Shown here in pieces: positions 28,552 through 31,712 of a stretch of DNA of 32,123 bases. This DNA is from Ignavibacteriales bacterium (GTDB lineage Bacteria > Bacteroidota > Ignavibacteria > Ignavibacteriales > Ignavibacteriaceae). The position numbers and the translations under genes are program-made. The first letter of the stretch is position 1; every line of letters starts with the position of its first letter. Below the pieces are notes generated by a model. The model searched no databases, was not told the DNA's origin, and worked only from the letters and a program-made list of their open reading frames with translations. The stretch spans positions 1 through 32,123 of the forward strand of contig JAGUYG010000065.1 of assembly GCA_020061465.1 (NCBI GenBank). The letters run 5' to 3'.

Positions 28552-28948
28552 GGGGGTGACTTTGGTTTCGACGGGGTTAAAGAGGCTTAGAACCGCACAT
28601 CGTGTTCCCCGAGTACACGTTAAACAATTGGGATAAAACAATAACTGGCGAATATAATTACGCCCTCGCTGCTTAATTAAATAAGCAGCCGTTCTTCAAG
28701 TTCTCTCATACCGGGATTTGTCCGAAAGGACTCCTTTGGAGAAAGAACGTCGTTTAGGTATGATAGCTAATCCTATCGCCCTTATAGGTGAAGCGAAACT
28801 TTAATGGGCAAGCTTAAAGCGATCCTTGTCTGTCCCGTAGGGATGGCTTTTGCCATTTGGTAACTTTAAGCTAAACAAAAACAGACTAAGTGTGTAGAAG
28901 TTCTTCGAATCGTAACTTCGGACGCGGGTTCGACTCCCGCCACCTCCA
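28552..28948 (+). ncRNA. ssrA: Transfer-messenger RNA (tmRNA)
   Basis: Rescues stalled ribosomes with SmpB by acting first as tRNA-Ala, then as mRNA for a degradation tag. The 5' end GGGGGTG (28552-28558) pairs with CACCTCC (28941-28947), including one G-U, and A28948 is the discriminator. CCA is not encoded. The 5' part reads GGTTTCGACGGGG, the T arm is GCGGGTTCGACTCCCGC (28924-28940), and pseudoknot-rich sequence fills the middle. About 397 bases, the usual single-piece form. The DNA directly after the 3' end is repeat-like and followed by accessory genes, so this gene is a candidate integration site. Confidence 0.97.
28647..28676 (+). other. tmRNA tag reading frame (GEYNYALAA)
   Basis: From the resume codon GGC (28647) the frame encodes GEYNYALAA then TAA (28674-28676), preceded in the cell by the alanine on the tmRNA, giving AGEYNYALAA. 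The NYALAA ending is the ClpXP/ClpAP-type signal found in Bacteroidota and relatives, which supports the organism assignment. Confidence 0.93.
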
Positions 28949-28949
28949 C

Positions 28950-29038
28950 TGGGCTTCGTTTTCGCTTCGCTCAACTTCGCCCCAGCAGGCTTTTTTAAGC
29001 GAAAACGAAGCCCACATCGGCGAAGTTCCTTCAGGAAC
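28950..29038. repeat. Interleaved inverted repeats immediately downstream of tmRNA
   Basis: TGGGCTTCGTTTTCGCTT (28950-28967) is matched perfectly by its reverse complement at 28997-29014, an 18-bp stem. A second pair, AACTTCGCC (28973-28981) and GGCGAAGTT (29019-29027), is interleaved with the first, and a small hairpin GTTCCT-TC-AGGAAC (29025-29038) follows. It begins two bases after the tmRNA 3' end. Possible roles are a tmRNA terminator, a recombination site at an attachment site, or a dispersed structured repeat. Confidence 0.8.
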
Positions 29039-29134
29039 GAAGCCGTGCTGCCAAATAAAATAGATTTTGCTCAAAACTACGCCCTGGCAGGCCGGAGAAT
29101 AAAAAAAGAGCAAAGCGAAAAAGAAAAACCAATC

Positions 29135-29227
29135 ATGACAAAAGAATTTCAATACGAAGAAATACTAATTACAAAAGGACCTGTCACGGCGAAACTGTTG
29201 ATTCCGATTATCTATCCAGACAATTAA
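29135..29227 (+). CDS. Possible 30-residue small protein (doubtful)
   Basis: ATG 29135 opens a frame MTKEFQYEEILITKGPVTAK... of 30 residues ending at 29227. The frame is also open upstream to GTG 29045, for 60 residues. There is no strong ribosome site and no recognisable family. It could be a small real gene of the island, the end of a decayed gene, or chance. Listed because the 29039-29286 stretch has nothing else. Confidence 0.25.
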   Translation: MTKEFQYEEILITKGPVTAKLLIPIIYPDN

Positions 29228-29286
29228 TTTATTGCTGCTTTATTATTAACTAACCTAAGTGTACAACCTAACAAACAGGTATAAGA

Positions 29287-29529
29287 ATGTATTACTATGT
29301 ATATATTCTTCAAAGCATCGACCAACCCCAAAACCATTATACCGGATTCACTACAAACCTGAAAGAAAGATTAGTTAAACATAATAATGGAGAAGTACCA
29401 CACACTTCAAAATTTAAACCCTGGAAAATCAATACAGCGATTGCATTTACTGATAAAGATAAAGCATTAGCTTTTGAGAAATATTTAAAAAGTCACTCAG
29501 GCAGAGCATTTGCTAAAAAGCATTTCTAA
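29287..29529 (+). CDS. GIY-YIG nuclease domain protein (UPF0213/YhbQ-like)
   Basis: 80 residues, a bare GIY-YIG domain. The two strands are YVYILQS (4-10) and HYTGFTTN (17-24), the latter in the YIG position. R28 in LKERL and E64 in AFEKYLK are the catalytic arginine and metal-binding glutamate, and the C-terminal KSHSGRAFAKKHF is typical of the Bacteroidota version. Small stand-alone members are usually considered structure-specific endonucleases of unknown role and are often duplicated within a genome. It sits in the accessory segment behind tmRNA, alone. Confidence 0.9.
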   Translation: MYYYVYILQSIDQPQNHYTGFTTNLKERLVKHNNGEVPHTSKFKPWKINTAIAFTDKDKALAFEKYLKSHSGRAFAKKHF

Positions 29530-29899
29530 CTAAACTTACTTCGTTTTGAGCGATACGAAAAATGAAGCCTGCAACGGCGCGCGGCTAAATAATCTGAAAA
29601 CCACAGTAAGGCTTAGGTATAACCTCGATCCAGATTGTTAACAGTGCAAAGCCGGTCTGTCACTCCTCATAAATCCGAACTGATTTTTATCTCTCTCCCG
29701 CTTGATTTTAAAACAATAATTGAACAATTTTATAACGGCTTTTGTATTATAGACTTGCGGATAAGGGCAGGAAAAATCCTGAGTCACGAAAGCTGATTTT
29801 CCTACCAGGTTATTTATCGAGCAAAATTGAATAGGGTATAAGCGTGTTATTATAACTATACTTTCAATTATTTTATTTCAGTTAAACATTTACAAATAA
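29530..29899 (+). other. 370-base non-coding leader before tcmP
   Basis: No convincing open frame. The part nearest the GIY-YIG gene (29531-29580) reuses words such as CTTCGTTTTGAGCG that resemble the inverted repeats behind tmRNA. At 29760-29803 there is a compact fold candidate: GATAAGGGCA, a CAGGA/TCCTG hairpin, CACGAAAGC, and an outer near-perfect pair AGGAAAAATC/GATTTTCCT (29769-29778 and 29795-29803). The last 90 bases are very AT-rich and could hold the promoter of tcmP; no clear ribosome site precedes its ATG. Confidence 0.5.
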
Positions 29900-30985
29900 A
29901 TGGCTGTACCTAAAGAAACTATATGGGAAATTGACCCGCACACAAGTGCCAAGCATAAAATTCTTGAGGGCTATCTTAAAGCTTGGTTTCCAGTCATAAG
30001 TAGATTCAATCCTGTTATAAATTACATAGATGGATTTGCCGGTCCAGGAGTTTATTCAAAAGGAGAATTAGGTTCTCCTATTATTGCATTAAATGTTGCT
30101 AATCAACATACCTCCGACTTAAAGGGAAATATTAATTTTGTGTTTATAGATGAGAGAGAAGATAGAATAGCTAATTTGATTGAAGAACTTAAAAACATAT
30201 CCTTAAAATCTAATTTTACTGCTCACCCAATACGAGGAAAGTTTCACGAAGTGCTGGATGAAGCATTGGGTAATCTGGAAAAAGAGGAGAAAGTTTTAGC
30301 TCCTACCTTTGTTTTTATAGATCCCTTTGGATTTTCTGGAATTCCCTCCACTATTATTCAGAAACTGTTAACCATTCCTAAAGTAGAGGTCTTTATAAAT
30401 TTTTCTGTTGATTCTATTAATAGATTCATTGGAACAAAGGATGTTGAATTCCATATAGATGAATTATTTGGAGCCGAAAAAGTTTCAGAGTTATTTGCGG
30501 CTTCAAAAGACAGAGTAAGAGATCTCAGAGATTTATATCAAATAATGCTAAATTCACTTGCAAGGTTCGTTAGATATTTTGAAATGAGGGACGAAGATGA
30601 CAGACCAATTTATTATTTATTTTTTGCTTCAAATCATGAATTGGGGCATTTGAAGATGAAAGAGGCTATGTGGAGAGTTAAAAAAGAAGGAGATTTCAAG
30701 TTTTCAGATGCTACTGATCCAAACCAGATAGTCCTTTTTGAAAAGGAAGATTTCGGCGAAGAAGTTTTTAATTTAATTAAGGAAAAATTTATCACTGGTA
30801 AATATGATGTTGAAATTCTGAAAATATTTGTGGAAAATGAAACAGCTTTTTTAGATAAACATGTAACACAAGCTCTTATCTTTGCCGAAACTAATGATTT
30901 GATTGAAGTTGACCCGCTGAAAACTGACGGCAGTAAAAGAAGAAAAGGTACACTTCCTAACGGAGTAATAGTAAATCTTAAATAA
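29900..30985 (+). CDS. tcmP: Three-Cys-motif partner protein TcmP (methyltransferase fold)
   Basis: 361 residues. The first 200 form a Rossmann methyltransferase-like domain. [11 protein letters not shown] (40-50) is motif I, FIDERE (82-87) supplies the acidic residue after strand 2, and [14 protein letters not shown] (136-149) is the motif IV strand with DPFG in the place of the DPPY of adenine-N6 methyltransferases such as Rlm[16 protein letters not shown] (246-260) is a second conserved block, and the C-terminal 100 residues look like a helical or winged-helix domain. The family TcmP is defined by its gene partner, the three-Cys-motif protein, which starts here only four bases after the stop. 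The two genes are surely one unit. Substrate and reaction are unknown; nucleic acid methylation is my inference. Confidence 0.9.
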
Positions 30986-30989
30986 TCTT

Positions 30990-31712
30990 ATGGCAACTAA
31001 ATCATCTATAGAATGGACAGAATCTACCTGGAACCCGATTACAGGATGTACGAAAGTTAGTCCGGGCTGCAAGTTTTGTTATGCTGAGAGAATGTCTAAG
31101 AGATTAAAAGCAATGGGTTCTGCTAATTATGAAAATGGATTTAAATTAACTCTCCACGAACACGTTTTAGAACTTCCTCTAACATGGAAAAAACCCCAGA
31201 CAATCTTTGTAAATTCGATGAGCGATCTGTTTCATAAAAATGTCCCTCTGGAATTTATACAAAAAGTTTTTGATGTAATGAACAGAACTCCGTGGCACAC
31301 TTACCAGGTATTAACTAAACGCTCCGATAGGTTGAAAGAATTAAGCAAAGAACTAGAATGGGGAAGAAATATCTGGATGGGAGTAAGCGTAGAAAACCAG
31401 GATTATACTTACCGCATTGATGATTTAAGAGACACAGGTGCCCAAGTAAAATTTTTATCTGTAGAACCATTAATAGGTCCCGTAAGAAAATTAAAACTGA
31501 AAAACATACACTGGGTAATTGTCGGCGGCGAATCGGGTCCTAAAGCAAGACCGATGAAATCGGAATGGGCGCTTGATATTAAAGACCAGTGCAAGGAAGC
31601 CGGTGTCCCATTTTTCTTTAAACAATGGGGCGGAATAAATAAAAAGAAAACGGGTCGCCTCCTTGAAGGAAGAACCTGGGATGAAGTGCCGGTTTTGAGA
31701 AAATCTGCATAA
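30990..31712 (+). CDS. Three-Cys-motif protein, DUF5131 / phage Gp37-Gp68 family
   Basis: 240 residues. The N-terminus carries [22 protein letters not shown] with cysteines C20, C27 and C30 (CX6CX2C), similar to but not the same as the CX3CX2C of radical SAM enzymes. After it come barrel strands in order: [50 protein letters not shown] and PFFFKQWGG. This is a partial TIM-barrel like radical SAM enzymes, so a [4Fe-4S] cluster and AdoMet chemistry are plausible but unproven. The family is common in phages and mobile elements. Here it forms an operon with tcmP; ORF6N follows 23 bases later. Confidence 0.9.

Follow-up and report, generated by a model that had tools for sequence, protein, structure and literature searches.

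The inverted repeats that directly follow the tmRNA gene in this Ignavibacteriales contig are probably (at roughly 60%) the folded leading part of a compact, integrase-free homing cassette that occupies the 3' ends of tRNA and tmRNA genes. The window, that is, the whole stretch of 32,123 nucleotides that was analyzed, carries such a cassette in the layout hairpin A (with stem P1), hairpin B, a C module and then a gene for an 80-amino-acid GIY-YIG nuclease. The features, all on the forward strand, are as follows.

28552..28949, +, tmRNA gene, the target of the cassette, which begins at the tmRNA 3' end (ARAGORN; Rfam RF00023)
28950..28967, +, 5' arm of hairpin A (P1), an 18-bp perfect pairing that covaries in relatives
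28966..28990, +, extra copy of the C module within the P1 loop (28973-28990 is 83% identical to 29075-29092)
28973..28981, +, 5' strand of P4, the second pair of a preliminary description of this DNA, a perfect 9 bp with 29019..29027
28997..29014, +, 3' arm of hairpin A (P1), the perfect 18-bp partner of 28950..28967 in the fold
29018..29045, +, hairpin B (P2), with a CGGC/GCCG base, a GAA/GAA internal loop and a GTTCCT/AGGAAC tip (from the fold)
29019..29027, +, 3' strand of P4, perfect over 9 bp and sharing bases with the 5' side of hairpin B
29065..29093, +, C module, made up of the 3' strand of P3 (GCTCAAAA), the core ACTACGCC and the end GGCAGGCC (from aligned relatives)
29287..29529, +, single-domain GIY-YIG nuclease gene, 80 amino acids (Pfam PF01541, E 9.6e-15)
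29533..29647, +, second, decayed A-B copy behind the nuclease gene (covariance model R1, E 4.7e-5)

The perfect 18-bp, 9-bp and 6-bp pairings were all found where the preliminary description had placed them, with the first two interleaved in the order 1-2-1'-2'. The 6-bp hairpin (29025-29030 with 29033-29038, closing a 2-nt loop) is the tip of the larger hairpin B (29018-29045), and because the 5' side of that hairpin contains the 3' strand of the 9-bp pair, the 9-bp pair and the base of hairpin B are mutually exclusive. The 18-bp pair is the longest perfect inverted repeat of the window at a gap of up to 60 nt, and the earlier view that it is unlikely to have arisen by chance was upheld: when 28940-29045 was shuffled 2000 times by single bases, no perfect inverted repeat exceeded 10 bp. 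The folding energy of 28940-29060 corresponded to z = -4.9, and none of 200 dinucleotide shuffles was equally low; the fold was also strong as DNA (z -4.6). The tmRNA end assigned by ARAGORN, 28949, is one base beyond the likely discriminator A (28948), and the P1 arm starts directly after this annotated end.

Relatives of the nuclease were compared at the best 80 of 104 loci, which were drawn from 13 phyla, with Pseudomonadota contributing 53 of the 80. Twelve of these had fewer than 600 nt of upstream sequence and were excluded. Among the 68 remaining from the best 80 of 104, a tRNA or tmRNA on the same strand was detected by ARAGORN within 500 nt upstream in 64: tRNA-Ala in 45, tmRNA in six, tRNA-Gly and tRNA-Leu in five each, tRNA-Thr in two and tRNA-Phe in one. 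The cassette core (CTTC or a close variant) is located at the third base past the tRNA end in 54 of these 64 and at the sixth in the other 10, and CTCCA stands directly before the cassette in 58. The other four of the 68 (L060, L064, L098 and L117) were judged by eye to lie behind short ends of the TCCACCA or GCTCCA type. Across the 80 loci, the common layout consists of the tRNA or tmRNA, hairpin A, hairpin B and the nuclease gene, with C following B in some and lying within the A loop in others. In many loci C and its P3 strand lie shortly upstream of the nuclease start, and in many elements behind an encoded CCA, P1 takes in the last two CCA bases. One relative from the same order (L242) had no tRNA or tRNA-like end in the 1500 nt upstream.

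Several details of the target sites were also observed. Only a short piece resembling a tRNA or tmRNA 3' end precedes the element at L060, L281 and L269, as if part of the target had been carried along or a chance site had been used. The junction reads CTCCACCA in some occupied tmRNAs and tRNAs (L051-L054, L225 and others), in contrast to L226, L227 and the window, and the genes of several unoccupied tmRNAs in the order lack a CCA; taken together, these junctions and CCA-less genes indicate that the cassette may bring the CCA with it. The second codon of the nuclease relative at the tmRNA of L225 (genome G001) is TAG.

Covariation was analyzed in an alignment, A1, of 19 elements, from which duplicate loci and L056 (because of a tandem insert) were left out and in which L055 was retained. 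Compensatory changes maintain P1 and P3: across P1, P3 and P2, two-sided changes were seen in 10 pairs (35 cells), four of them in P1 and six in P3. The covariation score was 0.264, as against 0.130 in shuffled alignments, and was reached in none of 500 shuffles, and 34 of 500 attained the count of pair types; given the relatedness of the sequences, these shuffle counts are not probabilities. P2 was paired in 98.7% of the A1 cells, yet showed no two-sided change. P3 joins the A loop to the C module and thereby forms a pseudoknot. In permutations in which the C cores were picked without favoring own pairs and duplicate loci were dropped, the P3 strands of the same element paired better than swapped strands (-14.0 versus -9.6 kcal/mol; 0 of 20000 permutations as good, 22 elements, L055 being omitted because of its altered C core). 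This result was retained in 18 elements after removal of four near kin and in 21 after removal of the window.

The pseudoknot put forward in the preliminary description was borne out in part: the helix that clearly covaries is P3, a different one; the second pair of that description, P4, which would join C to the 5' side of B, found weak support where C lies in the A loop, the layout of the window, and none in the other layout. With C in the A loop, 537 of 20000 permutations were as good (13 elements, with the same selection of cores), and among alphaproteobacterial elements (n=45) the figure was 111 of 20000. In this test no B arm was recognized in L117 and L072, and neither B arm nor core in L069 and L100. 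P4 was rejected as a general pseudoknot, since 3126 of 20000 permutations were as good in 19 elements with C after B and the column counts were reached in 458 of 500 shuffles. The ratio of G-T to A-C in the P1, P2 and P3 helices was 17 to 4, and this excess suggests that the sense strand is the folded one, as RNA or as DNA, a reading that is soft since the sequences are related. Searches against Rfam gave, besides the tmRNA families, only sub-threshold matches to unrelated families, and no group I or group II intron.

Covariance model R1, which was built from A1 and contains no more of the tRNA than its last 4 nt, was then the means by which further copies were detected. Apart from the element itself, a plain DNA search of the genome had returned only short matches (the best with E 0.0096); with R1, a second copy, followed by a tandem repeat, was found at a tRNA-Ala gene (contig C112, position 27695, E 7.5e-17). 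A nuclease remnant behind this copy was read by eye only, and tblastn found no nuclease there. In the order, R1 matched 28 of 142 genomes. Of 29 R1 loci inspected, 16 were seeds of the model and were not counted as evidence; among the 13 outside the seeds, ARAGORN placed an adjacent tRNA or tmRNA at 10, and by eye L277 ends in tmRNA sequence and L269 and L281 show only short pieces resembling tRNA or tmRNA ends. The fold also stands at tRNA ends with no detectable nuclease gene within 1.5 kb (for example L271, L276, L279, L282 and L283), and these copies may be decaying remnants. The possibility raised earlier of a dispersed mobile repeat is therefore supported, given the second genomic copy, the copies at tRNA and tmRNA ends in 13 phyla and the compensatory changes in P1; the outcome that the preliminary description named as refuting, a lack of both further copies and compensatory changes, did not occur.

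The cassette is apparently mobile. The nuclease is patchy in the order, being present in 19 of 146 genomes, and was found in 5 of 296 genomes in a sample of the phylum, the genome under study being included in both counts. Occupied (G033) and empty (G040) tmRNA loci from one genus are homologous until 2 nt past the tmRNA end. The occupied loci L226 and L243 diverge again 7 nt past the nuclease stop, and L226 and L234 are alike through to the contig end. No relative was found in phage, plasmid and viral collections.

Exchange was observed most closely in Bradyrhizobium, in which two cassette types alternate at one tRNA-Ala locus. The search for an empty site covered 70 of the 90 genomes with the right flank, and the tRNA end lay outside the stretch in two of the 70. 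The remaining 68 carried type I (33), type II (32) or something else (three, of which two are short remnants as judged by eye), with no fully empty tRNA-Ala site among them, so the right cassette boundary is approximate. The cassette starts at the tRNA end, in the orientation of the tRNA, and in Bradyrhizobium it mostly stops no more than about 30 nt past the nuclease gene: the conserved right flank begins at most 30 nt from the nuclease match in 53 of 61 copies and 32-125 nt after it in the other eight, a further A-B copy accounting for this in L186 and L201. Intact Bradyrhizobium cassettes measure about 320-435 bp.

In trees of the flanks of 30 Bradyrhizobium loci, cassette type required 10 changes (right) and 11 (left), values reached by 316 and 416 of 500 shuffles of the type labels, respectively; the well-supported branches alone force 7 (right) and 8 (left) changes of type. 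The Bradyrhizobium nuclease tree splits by type with 100/100 support, its bootstrap not being fully settled. Loci L168 and L177 illustrate the pattern, with 99.2% identity in the right flank, 91.8% in the left flank and a fully shared tRNA around cassettes that are 60% identical. At a fixed tRNA locus the cassette is thus exchanged independently of its flanks, and the linkage of fold to nuclease, combined with types that are random against the flanks, indicates that fold and nuclease move together and the flanks stay behind.

The nuclease domain PF01541 was found in 30 of 30 scanned members, in all of which Y18, G20, R28 and E64 are invariant. The structure model of the nuclease had a pLDDT of 95.7, and SLX1 and UPF0213 were nearest by both profile and fold. 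Characterized free-standing GIY-YIG homing endonucleases usually carry a separate DNA-binding region. The present protein has the catalytic domain and fold of that class, and its gene lies outside introns, is patchily distributed and has both occupied and empty sites; its 80 residues are almost entirely GIY-YIG domain, with no separate DNA-binding region, so it is classed here as working like a free-standing GIY-YIG homing endonuclease and not as a proven member. Phylum labels were strongly clustered in the nuclease tree (15 changes, with a minimum of 12), and deep transfer across phyla is therefore unsupported by this tree. Switching between target types is suggested by the same tree (14 changes, with a minimum of 6). 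Distant GIY-YIG paralogues in genomes G000, G043 and G044 lie within 200 nt of tRNA genes in 14 of 20 cases, and eight begin 1-47 nt past a tRNA, a distance that leaves no room for the fold, which suggests that the nuclease itself is tied to tRNA ends. Distant paralogues by tRNA genes were seen at L049, L137, L139-L150 and L152; some start 1-3 nt after the tRNA, and some overlap the next tRNA by about 20 nt.

The copy in the window looks like an older mosaic, in that the C module is duplicated inside P1, other DNA precedes the nuclease gene, a decayed second copy follows and the left P3 partner has been lost. About 190 nt of other DNA separate the C module from the nuclease gene, and the left copy has no P3 partner, its own strand pairing no better than those of strangers (rank 0.48). 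A C core within the A loop also occurs elsewhere, for example in L057, L062 and L067. A 30-codon open reading frame between the C module and the nuclease gene (29135-29224), with no second copy in the genome, is perhaps a remnant of other inserted DNA. Directly downstream, 29900-31712 holds a TcmP gene (TIGR04474) and a DUF5131 gene, which match the PADLOC candidate defense systems PDC-M30/PDC-M41.

Homing at tRNA 3' ends would account jointly for the location, orientation, patchiness and exchange of the cassette. The nuclease would cut or nick tRNA genes that are still unoccupied, close to their 3' ends, and repair off an occupied copy, with the tRNA as one homology arm, would copy the cassette in. 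The fold might act on the sense strand as a substrate recognized by the SLX1-like nuclease or, alternatively, as RNA that keeps the tRNA or tmRNA 3' end maturing and controls translation of the nuclease. The cutting, the repair and the role of the fold are inferred.

Other explanations were weighed against this one. The preliminary description had offered a terminator and a recombinase site, and both were set aside. For an intrinsic terminator, the P1 arm is followed by CATCGGCG and hairpin B by TGCTGCC, neither stem has a T-run behind it, and a terminator scan that sees only loops of 3-8 nt reported 0 sites. For a recombinase site or integrase island, no second copy of the tmRNA 3' end (19 nt, at most 3 mismatches) occurs within the window to 32123, its end 3 kb downstream. 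A passenger role, in which cassettes move solely by ordinary homologous recombination at conserved tRNA anchors, the nuclease is otherwise employed and the function of the fold is to keep the insert from disturbing tRNA maturation, is considered unlikely. The tRNA is a ready homology arm, the exchanged stretches begin at its end, and the inclusion of CCA bases in P1 also speaks for this role; however, exchange is frequent enough to randomize type against both flanks, flank sequence a few tens of nucleotides away is not co-exchanged, and the distant GIY-YIG paralogues also crowd tRNA genes.

A hairpin-dependent transposition of a single strand like that of IS200/IS605 or REP elements, for which the GIY-YIG protein would nick the P1 base at the tRNA end, is regarded as less probable still. 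It would draw on the hairpin, which covaries and keeps a constant distance to the insertion point, on a nuclease fold nearest to SLX1, a branched-DNA nuclease, on the strength of the fold as DNA and on a G-T bias that favors the sense strand. That bias suits RNA equally, most copies have no visible right-end hairpin, the cassette has no transposase gene, and we know of no GIY-YIG enzyme that joins strands. An IS200/IS605 or REP/RAYT element proper was rejected, as no open reading frame in 28950-29530 exceeds 88 amino acids and the gene there encodes a GIY-YIG protein and no HUH (Y1) transposase. Very little weight is given to an A-B-C fold whose sole reason for being carried along would be its work as a cis RNA element in tRNA/tmRNA 3' processing or in the control of nuclease translation. 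The position of C and the P3 strand before the nuclease start would fit such regulation, and T4 homing endonucleases, segB among them, are described as hairpin-regulated in the portion of the source consulted (PMC2988022), but the fold also stands at tRNA ends where the nuclease is undetectable, at what may be remnants.

No description of the cassette was found in the literature searched, which mostly excluded subscription papers and preprints. It is conceivable, at somewhat less than even odds, that an undescribed class is represented here, an integrase-free element of about 400 bp in which a conserved pseudoknotted nucleic-acid fold and a minimal SLX1-like GIY-YIG nuclease jointly insert at tRNA-Ala, tmRNA and other tRNA 3' (CCA) ends across bacteria. 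If so, it would be among the smallest known autonomous mobile elements. It would lie next to tRNA-Ala and tmRNA genes across many phyla, with exchange in Bradyrhizobium frequent enough to leave type unrelated to either flank. A covarying pseudoknot tied to a minimal nuclease would make homing by a protein that lacks a DNA-binding domain open to test and would help to account for small GIY-YIG genes beside tRNAs. The annotation of tRNA 3' ends is also affected, because the fold can take in the last CCA bases.

Several known systems share parts of this arrangement. tRNA-integrating islands with tyrosine recombinases target tRNA or tmRNA genes at the 3' end, as the cassette does, but the cassette is a few hundred bp long and has no integrase-length open reading frame, and the tmRNA end is not repeated in the window. 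In REP/RAYT and IS200/IS605 systems small hairpins are linked to a nicking enzyme; the cassette differs in being fixed at a tRNA end and in having a GIY-YIG nuclease instead of a HUH transposase. SLX1 and UPF0213, the closest sequences and folds of known structure, are likewise single-domain GIY-YIG proteins, and to our knowledge neither is known as a mobile cassette at tRNA ends. SegB of phages T4 and T6 is described, in the parts of the reports drawn on here, as a free-standing GIY-YIG homing endonuclease within a tRNA cluster that cuts inside tRNA genes (PMC13096335; PMC2988022), with the motif RAWTSGAAC at 23 of 83 sites (PMC13096335); in our reading the reverse complement of this motif would correspond to the tRNA T-arm. 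SegB is a phage gene, and those parts describe no conserved folded unit at tRNA ends, whereas the window protein is a GIY-YIG domain alone, found at tRNA 3' ends in many phyla. As a GIY-YIG nuclease gene beside tRNA genes, SegB, as far as those parts go, provides a precedent for homing of the kind proposed here.
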